DNA of 35,912 nucleotides from an uncultured Myxococcales bacterium (GTDB lineage Bacteria > Myxococcota_A > Polyangia > Palsa-1104 > JAEUJZ01), in contig CALMML010000284.1 in assembly GCA_937868485.1 (NCBI GenBank), forward strand, positions 1-35,912, read 5' to 3'. Position 1 is the first letter of the stretch; the number at the start of each line of letters is the position of its first letter. Shown here one piece after another: positions 3,855 to 14,613 of the stretch. A model generated the notes under the pieces. It was not told where the DNA came from, made no database searches, and saw only the letters and a list, made by a program, of their open reading frames with translations. Made by a program: the position numbers and the translations under genes.

Positions 3855-3899
3855 AGCGCGGAGTATGGGGTTTGCCGGTGGGGTGTGTCAACGCTGGGA

Positions 3900-4346
3900 C
3901 TAACGACAGCTTGCGCACAGGCCGCTTGCGTCTTGGCACTCTCGCTCGGCTTTTTTGCAGCTACGCAGGCTGGGTTCGTCGCCCACGCGCTCAGATAGCT
4001 CACAGATGCGACGCGAATAACCGCAGATCGCTTGGGCTGCCACGCAGGCGCCATCACACCGCGACGATGGAGCCGTTCGTGCCGTCGTTGCCGACACCGA
4101 CGGAACCGAATCGGGAGAAGCCGGTGCAGTCGCCAGCGTTGGAATTTGTCGTCGGCGCGAAGAGATGTTTCCTTCGAGCTGAGCGATCTCTGTCCGCGCG
4201 GCTTCAGCTCCAGGGCCGCTCCGAGGCTGATGCGCACAGCCCTGCGTACCCACGAATCCGACGCTGGACAGCAGCCACAGCGCCACAAGCGAGCCTCGTT
4301 GTGCGGACGTGAGGTCCTTGGCCACGTTCACAAAGAGAAGCTTCAT
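3900..4346 (-). CDS. Eight-cysteine putative lipoprotein
   Basis: A 148-aa protein. A hydrophobic stretch (about residues 20-36, SLVALWLLSSVGFVGTQGC) ends in a lipobox-like Cys, so an exported lipoprotein is likely. A Ser/Ala/Pro-rich linker follows, then a compact cysteine domain from CDGAC to the C-terminal CASCR with spacing C-x3-C-x6-C-x6-C-x14-C-x6-C-x6-C-x2-C. The seven-residue periodicity suggests two helices tied by disulfides. I recall similar C-terminal cysteine domains as conserved hypothetical proteins of myxobacteria; no function is known to me. Start is ATG 4346 with a GAGGAG ribosome site formed by the end of the upstream gene (stop at 4351). It is the last gene of the ECF sigma operon. 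Confidence 0.75.
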   Translation of the reverse strand: MKLLFVNVAKDLTSAQRGSLVALWLLSSVGFVGTQGCAHQPRSGPGAEAARTEIAQLEGNISSRRRQIPTLATAPASPDSVPSVSATTARTAPSSRCDGACVAAQAICGYSRRICELSERVGDEPSLRSCKKAERECQDASGLCASCR

Positions 4347-4350
4347 TGCC

Positions 4351-4899
4351 TTAGTGCTCCTCGGGAAGATCGGGCAGAGCCAAAAGCGCTCGTTGCAGGT
4401 GTCGATCGATGGCAATCGCTCGTTCCAGTGCGCGGATCGCTTCTTTGCGCGCTTCCTTGGCCGCAGCCGGATCGGTTACGCGCTTTGCCCGTGCTTCATA
4501 GATTTCAGCAGCAACCGACTCCAGGTGGGCACGAAAAAAGCTGTCCCGTGTCGCGAGCTTACGGCCAGCCTCGATCTGCGCAAACGCTTGATGCTCCGCT
4601 TCTTCTCCGCCCGGAGCCAGCAGCAGCTTGGCCAGCCTGCCATGCGCATCAAGCAGCGTGTCTTCGCCTTCAGAACTGCCCGCTGGAAAGCGAATGCGCA
4701 GCACTTCTTTGACATCGCCGATCGCAGCTGGCGTATCTCCGTCGAGAAGATGCAGATCCGCGCGACGGTGAAGGGCGCGGGCTTCGCTCAGCTGAAGCAG
4801 GACAAGCTCGTCGCTGCGTCCGTTTCCATCTTCTCGGTTACAGGAACCAACCATGCACAGCGCGATCAGCAGCCAGACTTTCCACCCGCGCTGCATCAT
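4351..4899 (-). CDS. Small helical (TPR-like) lipoprotein
   Basis: A 182-aa protein. It starts MMQRGWKVWLLIALCMVGSC, a lipoprotein signal with lipobox VGSC and Cys at residue 20. The mature part is strongly helical, with Ala/Leu/Glu/Arg-rich segments such as ALHRRADLHLLDGDTPAAIG, KEARKEAIRALERAIAIDRH and QRALLALPDLPEE. These match the size and pattern of TPR helices, though no full consensus repeat can be assigned. It is probably anchored in the membrane facing the periplasm. The ATG overlaps the stop of the upstream membrane protein (ATGA, 4899-4896), and its end supplies the ribosome site for the eight-cysteine lipoprotein. Confidence 0.75.
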   Translation of the reverse strand: MMQRGWKVWLLIALCMVGSCNREDGNGRSDELVLLQLSEARALHRRADLHLLDGDTPAAIGDVKEVLRIRFPAGSSEGEDTLLDAHGRLAKLLLAPGGEEAEHQAFAQIEAGRKLATRDSFFRAHLESVAAEIYEARAKRVTDPAAAKEARKEAIRALERAIAIDRHLQRALLALPDLPEEH

Positions 4900-5531
4900 C
4901 GATCACTCGCTGTTCCGACGATCGCCATCGTCGACTGAATCCGATGGTGACGATTGACCAACGTGACGCCGGTTCGCAGACCTTGGCTCCGACGCTGATG
5001 AAGTCGCTCTTGCAGCAGCATGTCCAACCGTGCCGTCGGTGTTTCCCCTTTTCGCAGTGAATCCCGAAGCAGCCACGCGGTCTGTCCCAGCGCGCCGGTC
5101 GTCTGTTTCGATCGCAGCTGGCTTCCCTGATCGAGAATCGCCCACGAAAACAGCAGCAGCATCGCCGCCGCCAGCAGCAGACCGCCCGTTCCGGTCACCG
5201 ATCGTCCAAGCTGTCTCAGCGTCGAGCTTCGCTGCTGCGCTTGCGAGCGCTTGGCCGTCACCTGCTCTTTGGCTGCGCGGGCCAGACCGCGTGCTCGAAG
5301 CTCACCAAGCGACTCCATTTCCGTCGGAAACCGCAGATGCGCAGCCAGCCAGCGAGCTTCCGGTGTGCGCTTACCTTGCGGACGCAGCGGATCGTGATCG
5401 CTTGCTTCTTCCGTCGCGCGCAGTGCGTCTCTCAGCGATCGCGCGGCACGAAGTTCGTCGCTACGCGGTGGCGCATCGGGATCCTCGACGGCTCCTTGGT
5501 TGTCGACGGGTTCGTCACGATCATCCTGCAT
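4896..5531 (-). CDS. One-TM protein, putative anti-sigma factor
   Basis: A 211-aa protein encoded directly after an ECF sigma factor. The N-terminal 110 residues are charged and helical (SDELRAARSLRDALRATEE, EARWLAAHLRFP), resembling the cytosolic sigma-binding part of myxobacterial anti-sigma proteins. One membrane span follows at about 112-132 (TGTGGLLLAAAMLLLFSWAI), then an 80-residue outer part. The classical zinc anti-sigma motif (HxxxCxxC) is absent, so the assignment rests on position and layout. Start is ATG 5531, preceded by GGAGAG and overlapping the sigma gene by 11 nt; an ATG at 5543 is in frame but lacks a ribosome site. Its stop overlaps the next gene start by 4 nt. Confidence 0.7.
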   Translation of the reverse strand: MQDDRDEPVDNQGAVEDPDAPPRSDELRAARSLRDALRATEEASDHDPLRPQGKRTPEARWLAAHLRFPTEMESLGELRARGLARAAKEQVTAKRSQAQQRSSTLRQLGRSVTGTGGLLLAAAMLLLFSWAILDQGSQLRSKQTTGALGQTAWLLRDSLRKGETPTARLDMLLQERLHQRRSQGLRTGVTLVNRHHRIQSTMAIVGTASDR

Positions 5532-6135
5532 CGGGCTCTCCATAGGCTTTGCGGAAGGCACGGACGGCACGCAGCAGCAGCACGTCAAACGTCTCGACGG
5601 AAACGCCGAGCGCAGCTGCACATGCTGCACGCGGTTTTTCTTCACACAGTCGCAGCCGAATCACCGTCGCATAGCGAGGATGCAGCCCGCTTAGCACGGA
5701 CTCAATCCGACGCTGGGCGATCTGACGTTCCTCGGCGGCGGACAGTAAGAGCGGTGCCGTCGCTTCTTCGGTGTCGGATAACTCTGCACGAAGGGCCTGA
5801 CACAGCCGCTTTCTTCGTCCCTGCGCGCGATGAAAGTCGATCACCTTGTTCCAGGCGATCTGTCGCAGCCAGTGATAGATGCTGCGCTGCTGGAATGTGT
5901 ACGTCGAGATTCGCTCCAGCGCCGTCACCAGCGTGTCCTTCAAAATGTCTTCCGCTTGTGCGCGATCTCCGACGCGACCCAAGATGCCCATGAACAGCGC
6001 CTCGGCATGGCTTCCCAGAATCGGTTCGAGAGCAGCCAAGTCACCGGCCTGGGCTTTTTCGACGGCGCGCTTTTCCCGCTGAAGCAGGGCGCTTCGTTCC
6101 GCCGAGTCATCCGGGCCTGTGCGGTCGGGGTGCAC
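5521..6135 (-). CDS. ECF-type sigma-70 family RNA polymerase sigma factor
   Basis: A 204-aa alternative sigma factor. Region 2 spans about residues 35-105: GDRAQAEDILKDTLVTALER is region 2.2-like, and QQRSIYHWLRQIAWNKVIDF covers 2.3-2.4, recognising the -10 element. Region 4 spans about 135-200: LSGLHPRYATVIRLRLCEEK, then the helix-turn-helix AACAAALGVSVETFDVLLLRA that contacts the -35. The linker between them is longer than usual. Start is GTG 6135 with GGAG 12 nt upstream. The gene overlaps its probable anti-sigma partner by 11 nt. The AgmX-like gene lies 94 nt upstream in the same direction and may share its transcript. Confidence 0.85.
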   Translation of the reverse strand: MHPDRTGPDDSAERSALLQREKRAVEKAQAGDLAALEPILGSHAEALFMGILGRVGDRAQAEDILKDTLVTALERISTYTFQQRSIYHWLRQIAWNKVIDFHRAQGRRKRLCQALRAELSDTEEATAPLLLSAAEERQIAQRRIESVLSGLHPRYATVIRLRLCEEKPRAACAAALGVSVETFDVLLLRAVRAFRKAYGEPDAG

Positions 6136-6229
6136 GCGCGTGTTTCTCCGTTCAAACGAGCGAACGTGGCGGACCTTACAGTCGAGTTGTGCTCGCTGGC
6201 CTCGACGACAAAGATCCGATTGGGTCTAC

Positions 6230-10064: not shown

Positions 10065-10277
10065 TTAGGAGCGCTGGCGATAGAAGCGAAGAAAGAAGCC
10101 GAGAACCGGCGTAAGCAGCGTGATGATCGACAGACCGAAGAGCAGGAACGTGATGTCAACGCCGAGAGAGCTGGAGTTTGGATTGAGTCCCCAGCGCACG
10201 GCCAAGATCTTGCCGCGAGAGCGTCGCTGGCTTGGCCGCGCTGGCGTCGGAGCGTCGATCACTTGCCCTGGGCGCAC
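10065..10277 (-). CDS. Small single-TM membrane protein downstream of dctP
   Basis: A 70-aa basic protein. The first 30 residues are hydrophilic (PTPARPSQRRSRGK); one membrane span at about residues 42-63 (ITFLLFGLSIITLLTPVLGF) is followed by a basic end, FLRFYRQRS. The NPNSSSLGVD turn just before the span looks like a conserved loop. The ATG at 10277 lies inside the last codons of dctP (19-nt overlap), which suggests coupled translation and supports a real gene despite its size. It is not a DctQ, which has four spans. A role with the TRAP transporter is inferred only from position. Confidence 0.6.
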   Translation of the reverse strand: MRPGQVIDAPTPARPSQRRSRGKILAVRWGLNPNSSSLGVDITFLLFGLSIITLLTPVLGFFLRFYRQRS

Positions 10278-11293
10278 TCATTGAGCGCTTTGCGGACGTC
10301 GTCGAAGGCTTGCGCGGGAACCACGGTGCCACGCACGGTCTTGTAGACCTCTTCCATCGTCTTTTGCCACTCGGCCTGATCCTTGACCGGCACGAGCGTG
10401 ACGCCTTGCTTCTGTAGCTTCGCGATCGAGTCGTCTTCCATCTTGCGGACTTCTTGATCGATCTTGGCGCTCGCCGACCGGAAGACCTCGATCAGCTTCG
10501 GACGCAGATCCGCCGGAATCTTGTCCCAGACTTCCTTTTTGGCCACCGTCACACCCGTCAGCGGCGAATACGGCATATCGAGCATGTACTTGGCCTTGCT
10601 GTGCATGTTTCCCGCGAGCACCAGCACGGGCGGATAACACAGCGCGTCGATCTTTCCAGTCTGGAGCGACGGAACCAGATCCGCACTGCTCAGCACCACC
10701 GGCTTAAAGCCAGCCGTCTGCCATGCTTTGGTGCTGTCTGGATCGCCTTCCCACGAAAACATCTTCGAGGTCCGCATCTCCGCCAGCGTTGGTCGCGGCG
10801 TCGTCGAAAAGAAACGCGTAAAGCCGATTTCGCCCCACGCCAGCACCACCACCGCAGGCTTTTTCTTCGTCTTGTCTGGCTCGCGATACGGATCGGCCAG
10901 CAGCGCTTCCAGCTTCGGCGTCATCTTGCTGAGCAGACAGCGATACTGCTCACGGTTCTTCGCCAGCATCGGCAGATCGATCGCCTGCGGATCGGGCGCA
11001 ATGACGTGCAGACCGACCGTGCTCACCGCAACCGCTTGCAGCGTGTTGTTGTTCATCTTGGTGAGCATCTCGCCTTCGTCGCCCATCGTGCCGCCAGCGA
11101 AGATCTTCAGCTCAACCTTGCCACCGCTCAGCTCGGCCCACTTCTGCGCGGCCTCTTGTAGGTGCGTGTGCCACGTCGAGCCAACCGGCGCGCGGGTTCC
11201 GAGCTTGATGGTCACTTTGTCTTGTGCGCTCGCGGGCGAAGCTGCGGCGAGGCACAGAACGGAAACGAGCGAGAGCAGGCCTTGTTTCTTCAT
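10259..11293 (-). CDS. dctP: TRAP transporter substrate-binding protein (DctP family)
   Basis: A 344-aa periplasmic binding protein for a TRAP (tripartite ATP-independent) transporter, which uses ion gradients to import organic acids or other solutes. The signal peptide (MKKQGLLSLVSVLCLAAASPASA) is followed by family motifs: IKLGTRAPVGSTWH, a WAELSGGKVELKIFAGGTMG strand-helix and a DALCYPPVLVLAG segment. The ligand cannot be predicted; DctP proteins normally bind carboxylates through an Arg in the cleft. Start is ATG 11293, which begins the signal peptide; a longer frame to 11335 lacks one. It lies after tatT on the same strand with a 126-nt gap, and the fused permease is encoded divergently. 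Confidence 0.88.
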   Translation of the reverse strand: MKKQGLLSLVSVLCLAAASPASAQDKVTIKLGTRAPVGSTWHTHLQEAAQKWAELSGGKVELKIFAGGTMGDEGEMLTKMNNNTLQAVAVSTVGLHVIAPDPQAIDLPMLAKNREQYRCLLSKMTPKLEALLADPYREPDKTKKKPAVVVLAWGEIGFTRFFSTTPRPTLAEMRTSKMFSWEGDPDSTKAWQTAGFKPVVLSSADLVPSLQTGKIDALCYPPVLVLAGNMHSKAKYMLDMPYSPLTGVTVAKKEVWDKIPADLRPKLIEVFRSASAKIDQEVRKMEDDSIAKLQKQGVTLVPVKDQAEWQKTMEEVYKTVRGTVVPAQAFDDVRKALNECAQGK

Positions 11294-11419
11294 GGGTATT
11301 CCTTGCGGGCGTGGGCTCCAGCCAATCGAAGCCACTATGCCATTACATCAGATGTTTTGCGCGTAACGGATAGGACGAAGAACGCCGAGAAACATTTTGA
11401 TCGCGATCGATCGCTCGGG

Positions 11420-12397
11420 TTATTCGGCAAACAGGTCGGACAGCTTGGTCAGCAGCCAGCGGGCGCGCTCTTGGGCGATGATGTTGCTGAGTCGCTGCTT
11501 CTTCCAGGTGGGATCTTCGGAATACACGTCGGTCGCGACGACCTGCTCGAGCATCTTCACAAACTCAGCCTTCTTTTGCTGCGCTTGCAGGACGCCTTCC
11601 GCGTACGACACCACGACGCCAAATCGGCGACCTTGGTTCTGCTTCATCGCGATATCGAGGTGCTTTTTCGACGCCGCCGGTCCGCCGCCCTGATCTTCGG
11701 ATCGCGCCGCGTCATACGACACGTAAAACTCGTGGATCGAGCCTTCGTCGAAGCTTTCGTCTAGCTCCAGCGCGCGATCCATCAGCACGCCAACCATCGG
11801 AAAGTCGCCAAACAGGTTCGGATCGTCTTTGGCAATGCTGATGGCCAGTGCCCAGCCCGCGCCCGCCCAGTACAGCAGTGGAACGTCGTCTTTGGTCAGC
11901 TTCGCGAGCGCCGCTTGCGCCTGGGCTTTGTCTCCCGACAGAACCGCTTTGCGGAATCCTGGATACGTAATATCCAGTCCATCGAGTGCATAGTTTCGAC
12001 CACGCAGATAGAGCCGTCTGGCACGCAGCCACTCTCGCTTGGCTTGGGGAATGCTCTTGTCGGCCAGTCGATCGGCGTCTTGGTTGACGTAGGCGTAGGC
12101 GTACTGAATGAAGCCGCTTGCCAGCGACAGTCGCAGCGGTCGATGCGTCGGCAGACCGTCCGCGAGCGATTCCATCGTCTTCAAACCGAACGGAACCGCT
12201 TGCCGAACCAGCTCGGGATCGTCGTCTGTACCGAAGCCGCCGCCTGTTCCCGAGAGCGCATCTGCCGTCGCTTTCAGCGCATAACCACGAATCGAGCAGC
12301 CGCTCATCGACGAAAGAAACAGACCCGGAATCACCACCGCACAGAGCCAGCGCGAAGACTTCTTCCACAGCCGACTACCGAGAGTCAGAACATGCAT
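11420..12397 (-). CDS. tatT: TRAP transporter T-component lipoprotein (TatT family)
   Basis: A 325-aa lipoprotein resembling the TRAP-associated TatT proteins first characterised in Treponema pallidum, which form helical-repeat trimers with a pore that docks the DctP-like protein. The signal segment SRWLCAVVIPGLFLSSMSGC ends with the lipobox Cys. The body has typical elements: DDDPELVRQAVPFGLKTMES, LASGFIQYAYAYVNQDAD, a YLRGRNYALDGL block, and PLLYWAGAGWALAISI, then LELDESFDEGSIHEF. Start is ATG 12397 (MHVLTLGSRLWKK); an ATG at 12433 would run into the divergent promoter. The neighbouring dctP and divergent dctQM make a complete TPR-associated TRAP system. Confidence 0.85.
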   Translation of the reverse strand: MHVLTLGSRLWKKSSRWLCAVVIPGLFLSSMSGCSIRGYALKATADALSGTGGGFGTDDDPELVRQAVPFGLKTMESLADGLPTHRPLRLSLASGFIQYAYAYVNQDADRLADKSIPQAKREWLRARRLYLRGRNYALDGLDITYPGFRKAVLSGDKAQAQAALAKLTKDDVPLLYWAGAGWALAISIAKDDPNLFGDFPMVGVLMDRALELDESFDEGSIHEFYVSYDAARSEDQGGGPAASKKHLDIAMKQNQGRRFGVVVSYAEGVLQAQQKKAEFVKMLEQVVATDVYSEDPTWKKQRLSNIIAQERARWLLTKLSDLFAE

Positions 12398-12455
12398 CAA
12401 TCGTTGCCTTTGCTTCTCAAAACGTGACGGCACTGTACCATAGGTCCTCTATTGG

Positions 12456-12461
12456 TATACT
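12456..12461 (+). promoter_or_regulatory. -10 box of dctQM in the divergent tatT/dctQM region
   Basis: TATACT lies 13 nt before the ATG at 12475. The region holds an imperfect dyad, CCATAG (12438-12443) against CTATTGG (12449-12455), that overlaps the promoter and could be an operator for the divergent genes. No good -35 box is seen. Confidence 0.4.
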
Positions 12462-12474
12462 GCTTTCACTTCCT

Positions 12475-14613
12475 ATGGTCGATCCCTCGCCTGAAAGCCC
12501 AGCAGCCTCGCCATCTTCAACCCCTTCCAGCGGGCCAAGCGGGCCAAGCGAGACGGGATCTCCCGACGACAACGTCCAGCAAGTAGAAGGAACCGGAGAA
12601 GCGCCACCACCGGCCAGCCGCATCGAGACAGCGGTCATTTGTCTGTTGTCGCTGGCGATCGTGTTTCTGCCGGTTCTGTCGAGTCTCCGCAGCTTGGCCG
12701 ACATGCTGCGCGAGTCCACGAAGCTGCCATGGCTGACGCATTCCTTCGGGTTTGTGCTGCACAAGCTGGTGCCGACGGATCTCGCGTGGGCGTCGGTGTA
12801 TGTGCAGAACATCACGGTGTGGGTCGGGTTTTTGGGCGCGCTGTTGGCCGTCGCGGGCGGCAAGCACCTGGGACTGTCGACGACAGCGTTTATGCGTCGC
12901 GGGCCGCTGCGGAGCGTGCTCGAAGGATTCTGCTCGGTGGTCTTTGTGCTGGTGACGCTGGTGCTGACTTATGCAGCGGCGCGAATGGTGGCGGTCGCTC
13001 GCGCCAACGGAGACAACGATCTGCTTCCCGGCGGCGTTCACAAGTGGCTCGTGCAGCTCGTCATCCCGGTGGTGTTTGGACTGATGGCGCCGCGAGCGGC
13101 CTGGCGAGCGCTCGATCCCAACGCAGCGGGTGGGCACGGTCCAGCCGATGGCGCTCCGCACGTTTCGATGAGCCCGCGACGGAAGCTGATTCGCTGGGTG
13201 ATCTGCGGTGTGATCTTTGCGCTGGCGGTCGCGATGTTTTCGATTGGCTTTGCGCACGATGGCTCGCAGCGGCTGCAAGACTGGGTCAGTCGCGTCGACA
13301 AGCTCGTCGGGGTCGTCAAGTGGCTGGGTCTGCTATCGACGGGCGTTGGCTTCTTCCTGGGTCTGCCGGTATTTGTCGTGATGGCGGGCTTGGCGATGAC
13401 GATGTTCTTTTCGTCGGGAACGCCGATTGCTGCGCTGCCGCTTGAGACGCTGCGCCTGGTTGCCAATCCGTCGCTGCCTGCGATTCCGCTTTTGACGATT
13501 GCTGGCTACATCTTGGCGTCGGGACGATCGTCGCATCGCTTGGTTCGTGCGTACAAGAGCGTGCTCGGCTGGATTCCCGGCGGCATGGCGGTGATGGTTG
13601 TCATCGTCTGTGCGGTCTTTACGACGTTTACCGGAGCCTCGGGCGTGACGATTCTGGCGCTCGGTGGCTTGGTCTATCCGATGCTGGTTCGAGACGGCTA
13701 TCCCAAGGGATTTTCGCTCGGAATGGTGACGGCAGCGGGCAGCTTGGGTCTGCTCTTTCCGCCGAGCCTGCCGGTGATTCTGTACTCGGTGGCAGCCAGC
13801 TCGCCGGGTTCGGTTGCGCCAGTTGCCGTCGACCAGCTGTTCATCGGTGGCTTCTTGCCCGGACTCAGCCTGGTGCTGCTCGTGTCGCTGTACGGCATGT
13901 ATCAAGGTCACAAAGCGGGCGCGCCGCGTCAGAAGCTCGAGTGGAACGAAGCCCGCGCGGCGATGTGGGAAGCCAAGTGGGACATCGTGGTTCCAGTCGT
14001 GGTGATGGGCTCATTTCTGTCGGGCATTGCGACGATCGTGGAGTCAGCGGCCATCGGTGCGGCGTACGCGCTGGTCATCGAGCTGACGGTGTTTCGCAAC
14101 ATGAAGCCGACCAAGGATCTGCCTGCTGCGCTGCTCAATGCCGCGTCGCTGGTGGGCGCCGTGGTGGTGCTGCTCGGGGTGGCGCTGGGACTGACGAACT
14201 ACCTGGTTGAAGCCGAGGTGCCGACCAAGCTCGTCGAGTGGGTTCAGGCGCACATTCACTCGCGCTGGGTGTTCTTGCTGGTGCTCAACATCGGGCTGCT
14301 CATCCTCGGGAGCGTGCTGGAGATTTATTCGGCGATTGTGGTGCTGGTGCCGCTCGTTGCGCCGCTCGGTGTGGCGTTCGAGGTCAACCCAGTTCACCTC
14401 GGTGTCATCTTCTTGGCGAACCTGGAGCTGGGCTTTTTGTGTCCACCGATGGGCCTAAACCTGTTTCTGTCCGCGACGAGATTCCAGAAGCCGCTGCCGT
14501 ATCTGTATCGGGAAGCGCTGCCGTTTTTGGCGATCATGACCGTCGGTGTGTTGTTTATCACCTACGTTCCCGGCGTGACGCTGTGGCTGCTGCATGCGCT
14601 CGGAAAAGGCTAG
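12475..14613 (+). CDS. dctQM: TRAP transporter fused permease (DctQ-DctM)
   Basis: A 712-aa inner-membrane protein. The first 50 residues are a Ser/Pro/Gly-rich disordered cytosolic tail. The DctQ-like small-subunit part (about 50-280) has four predicted spans, starting ETAVICLLSLAIVFLPVLSS. The DctM-like large part (about 285-712) has around twelve spans and family motifs: FFLGLPVFVVMAGLAM, FTTFTGASGVTILALGGLVY, SLGLLFPPSLPVILY, and near the end ELGFLCPPMGLNLFL. DctM is the ion-coupled carrier and uses an elevator mechanism. Start is ATG 12475, behind the -10 box; a frame reaching back to 12118 lies inside tatT. The glycosyltransferase gene starts 6 nt downstream. Confidence 0.9.
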   Translation: MVDPSPESPAASPSSTPSSGPSGPSETGSPDDNVQQVEGTGEAPPPASRIETAVICLLSLAIVFLPVLSSLRSLADMLRESTKLPWLTHSFGFVLHKLVPTDLAWASVYVQNITVWVGFLGALLAVAGGKHLGLSTTAFMRRGPLRSVLEGFCSVVFVLVTLVLTYAAARMVAVARANGDNDLLPGGVHKWLVQLVIPVVFGLMAPRAAWRALDPNAAGGHGPADGAPHVSMSPRRKLIRWVICGVIFALAVAMFSIGFAHDGSQRLQDWVSRVDKLVGVVKWLGLLSTGVGFFLGLPVFVVMAGLAMTMFFSSGTPIAALPLETLRLVANPSLPAIPLLTIAGYILASGRSSHRLVRAYKSVLGWIPGGMAVMVVIVCAVFTTFTGASGVTILALGGLVYPMLVRDGYPKGFSLGMVTAAGSLGLLFPPSLPVILYSVAASSPGSVAPVAVDQLFIGGFLPGLSLVLLVSLYGMYQGHKAGAPRQKLEWNEARAAMWEAKWDIVVPVVVMGSFLSGIATIVESAAIGAAYALVIELTVFRNMKPTKDLPAALLNAASLVGAVVVLLGVALGLTNYLVEAEVPTKLVEWVQAHIHSRWVFLLVLNIGLLILGSVLEIYSAIVVLVPLVAPLGVAFEVNPVHLGVIFLANLELGFLCPPMGLNLFLSATRFQKPLPYLYREALPFLAIMTVGVLFITYVPGVTLWLLHALGKG

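Follow-up and report, generated by a model that had tools for sequence, protein, structure and literature searches.

Myxobacteria encode many extracytoplasmic function (ECF) sigma factors, for few of which the signal or the targets are known. In Escherichia coli, the genes of a comparable system follow the order rpoE-rseA-rseB-rseC. The locus described here is an ECF sigma factor operon on a contig of an uncultured Myxococcales bacterium (CALMML010000284.1, positions 1 to 35,912; this whole stretch of 35,912 nucleotides is called the window), in which four genes on the minus strand, running from 6135 to 3900, encode a sigma factor, a protein with one transmembrane (TM) segment, a TPR-like lipoprotein, and a lipoprotein with eight regularly spaced cysteines. 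Like the E. coli operon, it joins a sigma factor, a one-TM regulator, and a periplasmic partner; it differs in that none of the window proteins matched RseA or RseB of Pfam, in that the extra proteins are the TPR-like and the Cys-hairpin lipoproteins, and in that its regulon is predicted to be very small compared with that of the E. coli factor. For RseB, this comparison follows PMC8103513. With the canonical ECF sigma/membrane anti-sigma operons, as PMC8103513 describes them, the locus shares a sigma2-sigma4 protein, an adjacent gene for a membrane partner, predicted autoregulation, and, in its predicted promoter, a CGT-type −10 box, but the −35 box is AAC there and TGTAAG here, the partner has no known anti-sigma domain, two lipoprotein genes are added, and almost no further target is predicted. 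An AAC −35 box together with a CGT −10 box is, according to that source, a classic feature of ECF promoters, though no longer a required one. The CorE-type Cys-dependent ECF sigma factors of Myxococcus (PMC8999054) are likewise a myxobacterial ECF system with a Cys-rich element, which lies within the sigma factor itself there and on a separate lipoprotein here. Taken simply as a sigma/anti-sigma operon, the locus is a variation on an established type. The features of the window locus, all on the minus strand, are as follows (aa, amino acids; ORF, open reading frame; pLDDT, predicted local distance difference test score):

5521..6135, minus strand: ECF sigma factor, 204 aa, GTG start; Pfam Sigma70_r2 and Sigma70_r4_2, relatives found by search.
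4896..5531, minus strand: one-TM protein, 211 aa, putative anti-sigma factor without zinc motif; position and single TM segment conserved in relatives, sigma4-TM fusion in Myxococcaceae.
4351..4899, minus strand: TPR-like lipoprotein, 182 aa, lipobox VGSC; from sequence, TPR_2 below cut-off; used as the seed of a profile, it recovers 94 ORFs among the loci fetched.
3900..4346, minus strand: Cys-hairpin lipoprotein, 148 aa, lipobox TQGC; from sequence, alignment A5, and an AlphaFold model.
3903..4067, minus strand: eight-Cys helical hairpin domain, residues 94-148; profile match, block-mean pLDDT 94-97 over residues 101-140.
6155..6180, minus strand: predicted ECF-type operon promoter; motif from a comparison of regions upstream of sigma genes, then located in the window.
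3862..3891, minus strand: sigma70-like promoter TTGACA-18-CATACT before the next gene; a consensus match only, one found versus a mean of 0.4 in shuffles.

The TM gene shares 11 nt with the sigma gene and 4 nt with the third gene, and a gap of 4 nt lies between the third gene and the Cys gene; the 211 aa of the TM protein are counted from the ATG at 5531, with a second ATG 12 nt upstream. Given the sigma70-like promoter in front of the following gene, the Cys gene seems to be the last of the operon. The sigma factor scored above the cut-offs of both Pfam domains (Sigma70_r2, 35.2 versus 24 bits; Sigma70_r4_2, 29.6 versus 25.7 bits) and of the NCBIfam sigma70-ECF model (63 versus 42.9 bits), and of the sigma regions its 204 aa contain sigma2 and sigma4 alone, as is characteristic of ECF (group IV) factors. 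An earlier note, made from the letters of the window alone, had described an ECF sigma module of four genes; its coordinates, overlaps, and Cys spacing agree with the sequence in every case. The partner had been described there as a one-TM protein without the usual zinc anti-sigma motif, and it indeed has no Cys at all and, hence, no HxxxCxxC. The third protein, called a helical lipoprotein in the note, is a lipoprotein, and its description can be refined to TPR-like: the window copy matched TPR_2 below the cut-off (E 4e-4, 20.6 of 27 bits), and among its relatives L175 (loci carry L numbers, genomes G numbers) exceeded that of TPR_1 (32.7 versus 27.8 bits), with L217 remaining below.

We favor, at about even confidence, the reading that these genes form a minimal autoregulatory ECF circuit with the lipoproteins as its output and with possible feedback. 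The one-TM protein, as anti-sigma factor, would keep the sigma factor bound until an envelope signal, presumably envelope stress, releases it; once freed, the sigma factor would transcribe its own operon from TGTAAG-N16-CGTT and little else, yielding more sigma factor, anti-sigma factor, TPR-like lipoprotein, and one or more Cys-hairpin lipoproteins, and in some species its targets would also include Cys-lipoprotein genes that stand free of the operon or the gene of another lipoprotein. The Cys lipoprotein itself would be a lipid-anchored three-helix bundle with a hairpin stapled by C1-C8, C2-C7, C3-C6, and C4-C5, the four cross-links most likely being disulfides made after export. It would act as a robust envelope effector rather than as a thiol switch, and possibly it would also feed back on the anti-sigma factor by partnering with the periplasmic helix of that protein.

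A gene order confined to close relatives would, according to the earlier note, have refuted its reading; the four-gene order instead proved conserved in Myxococcota far beyond close relatives, and both this recurrence and the profile matches given below show the arrangement to be no product of chance. When 58 relatives were searched with the sigma factor and with the Cys protein, many genomes had the two matches on one contig and one strand, separated by about 1.5-3 kb. At E 1e-4, a profile of the Cys domain matched 50 of the 377 genomes from the phylum (12 of the 50 outside the class), and at E 3e-4 a broader one matched 110 of the 317 genomes from the class. The fetched loci contained 149 Cys genes, preceded on the same strand by sigma and TPR genes in 108 cases, by sigma only in 1, by TPR only in 5, and by neither in 35. 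As this set had partly been fetched on the sigma gene, the 83 loci fetched on a Cys match (111 Cys genes) were counted separately: 56 had both genes upstream on the same strand, 4 had TPR only (with little upstream sequence), and 23 had neither, several of them because the contig ends there. With at least 3.5 kb of room, both genes were present in 46 of 61 loci. Eight of the 56 full-order loci lie outside the class (L092-L095, L099, L103, L111, and L117). Left out of the 83 were L097, L254, and L258, which had also been fetched by pattern (both genes are present in L254 and L258, and neither is in L097), as well as L075-L077 from an earlier Cys-match fetch, none of which has both; the 40 loci L243-L282 are a hand pick among the matches listed by the broader class profile. 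Holders include Paraliomyxa miuraensis (L147) and a metagenome-assembled genome (MAG) of Kofleriaceae (L217), in which the TM and TPR genes overlap by 4 nt as in the window and the TPR-to-Cys gap is 7 nt. Two or more Cys genes were found in 22 operon loci. When genome contigs were scanned for the exact Cys spacing, at least 119 stretches were obtained, 9 of which have real family members, all assigned to Myxococcota; the other 110 among the matches listed showed no family match, from which absence elsewhere cannot be claimed.

Among the 6-mers upstream of the sigma genes, TGTAAG was conspicuous (49 of 82 regions, versus 2.5 expected from shuffles of 3-base blocks), and in 48 distinct aligned windows a second box, CGTT, followed 16-17 nt downstream, with T in 46 of the 48 at the best-conserved place. 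The combined motif, TGTAAG-N15..18-CGTT, was present on the coding strand in 44 of 80 such regions; the opposite strand gave 1, and the reversed pattern gave 0. Two duplicate loci had been dropped from this set, and one region, that of L255, is upstream of a lower-scoring ECF gene whose strand is opposite to that of the Cys genes there. In the window, TGTAAG (6180-6175), a 16-nt spacer, and CGTT (6158-6155) are followed by 19 nt up to the start codon of the sigma gene. From this predicted promoter before its own operon, the sigma factor may positively regulate itself.

Little else seems to be transcribed from this motif. Five genomes of family f14, which we take to be Kofleriaceae (G440 of f14 gives the same TM protein as L217), contained TGTAAGNTN{13,15}CGTT at 7 sites, versus 2 for the reversed control, and 5 of the 7 are the operon promoter, one per genome. 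In the genome of the window, TGTAAGNTN{14,15}CGTT occurred twice (control, 1), at the operon and inside a long ORF. Among 28 scanned loci with Cys genes lacking sigma or TPR upstream, four carried the full motif; in one of them, L103, the Cys gene directly precedes the sigma gene, so that its motif is the operon promoter. This extra Cys gene (L103:6121-6894, minus strand; outside the class) has the TGTAAG/CGTT promoter before it instead of before the sigma gene. This leaves 3 of 27 loci (L079, L255, and L282) in which a free-standing Cys-lipoprotein gene has the motif before it; in the 21 loci for which the reversed pattern and the other strand served as controls, neither gave a match. The motif also precedes the gene for a second lipoprotein (328 aa in G000, no Pfam match there) in G000, G001, and G002, that is, in all three genomes of the genus; the G001 relative gave a weak match to DUF6068 (E 0.009).

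L311 (G000:C453:9126-9151, minus strand), L303, and L301: second lipoprotein loci.
L292, in G004: seemingly shortened copy of the second lipoprotein gene.

In G004, of another genus of the same family, a matching promoter precedes the seemingly internally shortened copy, and the Cys gene is interrupted by a stop (L047). The coincidence of an interrupted Cys gene and a seemingly shortened second lipoprotein gene hints that both lipoproteins serve one function.

Several observations weigh against the promoter and the targets read from it. The motif was found and counted on the same, often related, regions, so that the counts are a description rather than an independent test. The full motif is missing from 36 of the 80 sigma upstream regions, and no substitute promoter was found in 19 f8-type loci without it. 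The loose form, TGTAAGN{16,17}CGTT, was rarer than its reversed control in all five tested genomes of the window's family (G000, 7 versus 13; G001, 5 versus 14; G002, 10 versus 16; G003, 4 versus 14; G004, 3 versus 4); there is no genome-wide excess in G000-G004, and the motif therefore shows no broad regulon. Of the free-standing loci, 24 of 27 are without the full motif, and two of the three that bear it, L255 and L282, are congeners. As a separate observation, one of two f8 operon types does not have the TGTAAG promoter though its genes are conserved (L058, L059, L062, L080, L086, L245, L247, and others).

As the predicted promoter precedes both the operon and some free-standing Cys genes, the Cys protein appears to be at least partly a product of the circuit, and the lipoproteins may be output of the sigma factor as well as its partners. 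The three operons L066, L070, and L071 keep the sigma, TM, and TPR genes, but no Cys gene was detected in them; for this reason, and because the Cys lipoprotein also occurs alone, it is probably not the essential sensor. These same facts, the operons with no detected Cys gene and the Cys genes that stand apart from an operon (a few of them behind the sigma-type promoter), speak against a different division of labor, in which both lipoproteins would, like RseB, mainly be sensors that bind the periplasmic helix of the anti-sigma factor and control its proteolysis, with autoregulation only keeping the proportions. Such an arrangement would suit the position of the TPR and Cys genes beside the TM gene, and a plausible docking site can be named: 19 of the 30 TM proteins of alignment A7 have R[I/L]D within the C-terminal 90 residues, in a helix resembling RIDxIxxDRLxgYR (full periplasmic motif aRIDxIxxDRLxgYR; window version, ARLDMLLQERLHQRR). 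We consider it rather unlikely, yet it comes second, after lipoproteins as output and before the redox-sensing and metal-binding readings treated below, which share the last place; the doubt as to the anti-sigma role is a separate, equally small one.

The Cys domain itself was analyzed with respect to its relatives, fold, and cross-links. In the window protein, the spacing is C97-x3-C-x6-C-x6-C-x14-C-x6-C-x6-C-x2-C147, to which the lipobox Cys (C37) is added, and the gene for this protein is the only one of its kind in the genome (four other matches all had E above 1). Compared with Pfam, the window protein gave no match, and 20 members of the domain gave three single-member chance families only, with no copper-storage or other metal-binding family among them; the Csp/DUF326 copper-storage profile matched none of the 20 at E 1 or better. 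A sequence search of the PDB yielded no relative of the domain, only one chance match to a designed repeat protein (E 1.5), and Foldseek yielded nothing at E 0.001 or better, the best E of 0.13 being for common three-helix bundles; the best structural Z was 10.2, in a range (below about 13) in which similarity between helical bundles may reflect a common arrangement and nothing more. For the lipoprotein, an AlphaFold model based on ten sequences has helices at 45-72, 94-121, and 124-147, and the protein is accordingly predicted to be a three-helix bundle with a confident helical hairpin. Cysteine-laddered helical hairpins are known from the CHCH/twin CX9C proteins and the plant alpha-hairpinins. 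Two antiparallel helices joined by disulfides, predicted in the present case, are common to all of them; the family described here is set apart by its four predicted cross-links, which follow heptad spacing, by a third helix, and by its setting in a bacterial lipoprotein.

Natural variation in 145 distinct domains points to how the cysteines may be paired (two truncated domains were dropped, L067 by a contig end and L047 by a stop; C3-C6 were demanded by the alignment rule, so that variation there carries no claim). When C1 is present, domains with C2 have at least two terminal cysteines in 121 of 121 cases, and those without C2 have one in 16 of 17; this single terminal Cys lies at C6+11 in 15 of the 17 domains, mirroring C1 at C3-11. 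In L049, C2 and C7 are gone with C1 and C8 kept, in L082 it is C1 and C8 that are gone with C2 and C7 kept, and L050 and L051, both missing C1, have one terminal Cys. The outer cysteines are lost mostly as matched pairs, C2 with C7 and C1 with C8, which fits four nested cross-links. Most simply, all four would be structural disulfides, a step by which we infer both the chemistry and the inner pairs. To be set against this are two exceptions to the pairing (L269 without C2 but with two terminal cysteines, L083 without C1 but with three) and L273, in which C1 is shifted by one. The Fisher value for the pairing (5e-20) is not to be taken literally, as related sequences were counted as independent, and the matched losses seem to be few independent events, in about four lineages. 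Cu(I) thiolate pairs, moreover, would covary as disulfides do. Most f14 Cys domains (L055, L056, L057, and others) have an extra Cys beside C7 (RCC), and the f14 copies looked at also have a further upstream Cys, which would keep the Cys total even.

Periplasmic thiols next to a transmembrane anti-sigma factor had led the earlier note to propose a redox- or disulfide-sensing surface module. On this reading, which eight conserved cysteines in an exported lipoprotein beside a transmembrane partner would suit, the Cys lipoprotein would signal to the anti-sigma factor. The proposal found no support: changes in the outer cysteines mostly affect matched pairs, the pattern of structural cross-links, and do not single out one special reactive Cys, and the all-helical model has no thioredoxin-like fold. 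The operons with no detected Cys gene and the sigma promoter before some free-standing Cys genes weaken it further, and we judge it improbable. Equally improbable is metal binding, that is, storage or sensing of Cu(I) or Zn by paired thiolates in an operon laid out like the metal-responsive CnrYXH system: pairwise loss and the i/i+4/i+7-type helix spacing of the cysteines would also fit thiolate pairs, but none of the 20 domain members matched a metal-binding family, the chain is exported as a lipoprotein to where thiols are usually oxidized, and no metal-transport gene was seen by eye among the 18 commonest neighbor clusters.

By a rough pattern, a lipobox was recognized in 110 of the 149 Cys lipoproteins and in 57 of the 94 TPR lipoproteins. 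At position +2, 79 of the former have A or G and 3 have D; of the latter, 12 have D there. By analogy with the +2 rule of E. coli lipoprotein sorting, this suggests that the Cys protein is sorted mainly to the outer membrane and the TPR protein is mixed.

A TM-bearing ORF lay between the sigma gene and the TPR match in 83 of the 85 loci in which these are at most 2.5 kb apart (one of the 83 is a duplicate); hydropathy assigned one TM segment to 81 of these proteins and two to the remaining 2. The HxxxCxxC motif of zinc-binding anti-sigma factors was present in 0 of the 83, and 73 were free of Cys. The family is diverse (mean column identity of 21% in the 30 members of A7), with E26 invariant and A30 and R181 reaching 90%. 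The window TM protein matched no Pfam family apart from a single chance match (E 3); the 43 TM proteins of alignments A7 and A8 gave nothing useful in Pfam, and neither RseA nor RseB; against NCBIfam, the window copies of the TM and Cys proteins remained without a match. A known anti-sigma or sensor family was considered for both proteins and dropped, no relevant Pfam or NCBIfam match having been obtained.

A link between the sigma factor and its TM partner is provided by Myxococcaceae, in which a fusion of region 4 of the same sigma subfamily with a C-terminal hydrophobic segment stands in place of the separate sigma and TM genes:

L200:6843-7487, Corallococcus sp.: sigma4-like/hydrophobic fusion ORF directly before the Cys gene.
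L237:3425-4000, Myxococcus dinghuensis: the same, directly before the Cys gene.
L171:7491-8000, Archangium MAG: the same, directly before the Cys gene.
L212, Myxococcaceae MAG: the same, directly before the Cys gene.

Mean hydropathy of the hydrophobic segment over 17 residues is 1.4-1.9. The profile E-values are 2e-17 (L200), 7e-11 (L237), 9e-8 (L212), and 1e-6 (L171), with these four sequences as the only database; in a larger search set, L200 alone of the fusions passes E 1e-12 (5.5e-14), and the Pfam sigma4 match is weak and confined to L200. Region 2 gave no match in the four proteins, of which that of L171 is cut by the contig end. By position, topology, and the evidence from the fusion, the TM protein is likely an anti-sigma factor. 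That it is instead a structural partner of the lipoproteins, with the sigma factor controlled only by its own transcription, would agree with the lack of a known anti-sigma domain in Pfam and with a poor, uninformative AlphaFold model (three sequences, pLDDT 53), which weighs against the anti-sigma role, but is improbable given the TM gene directly after the sigma gene in 83 of 85 loci and the single protein, encoded before the Cys gene in the four Myxococcaceae loci, that unites sigma region 4 with a hydrophobic stretch.

Beyond the operon, no wider neighborhood is conserved, the commonest flanking cluster occurring in 14 of 83 operon-bearing loci. By eye, lysine 2,3-aminomutase-like radical enzymes lie near the Cys gene in the Myxococcaceae loci L171 and L200 and in the free-standing f16 loci L110 and L259, and the translations of window positions 10259-14613 resemble a TRAP-type transporter cluster (binding protein, permease, and TatT-like lipoprotein).

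Literature searches, judged from their listings, returned no paper on the operon or the Cys family, and none on the Cys-hairpin family, the TGTAAG/CGTT promoter with its almost one-operon regulon, or the sigma4-TM fusion; the circuit appears to be without earlier experimental study. As the operon, its probable promoter, and its likely targets are here brought together, the circuit is directly testable. The analysis also defines a lipoprotein domain family missing from the family databases searched and presents a case of a sigma factor seemingly turned into a membrane-anchored fragment. Tentatively, and as a rather unlikely extension, the system may be a phylum-wide "selfish-regulon" homeostat, in which a sigma factor is devoted to a single operon of its own regulators and disulfide-laddered surface lipoproteins, and which in Myxococcaceae has been reduced to a sigma factor without region 2, fused to its membrane partner and still beside the same Cys lipoprotein. 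If this is true, the lipoprotein pool itself would be the regulated quantity, and the sigma4 domain of Myxococcaceae would be membrane-tethered and non-transcribing.

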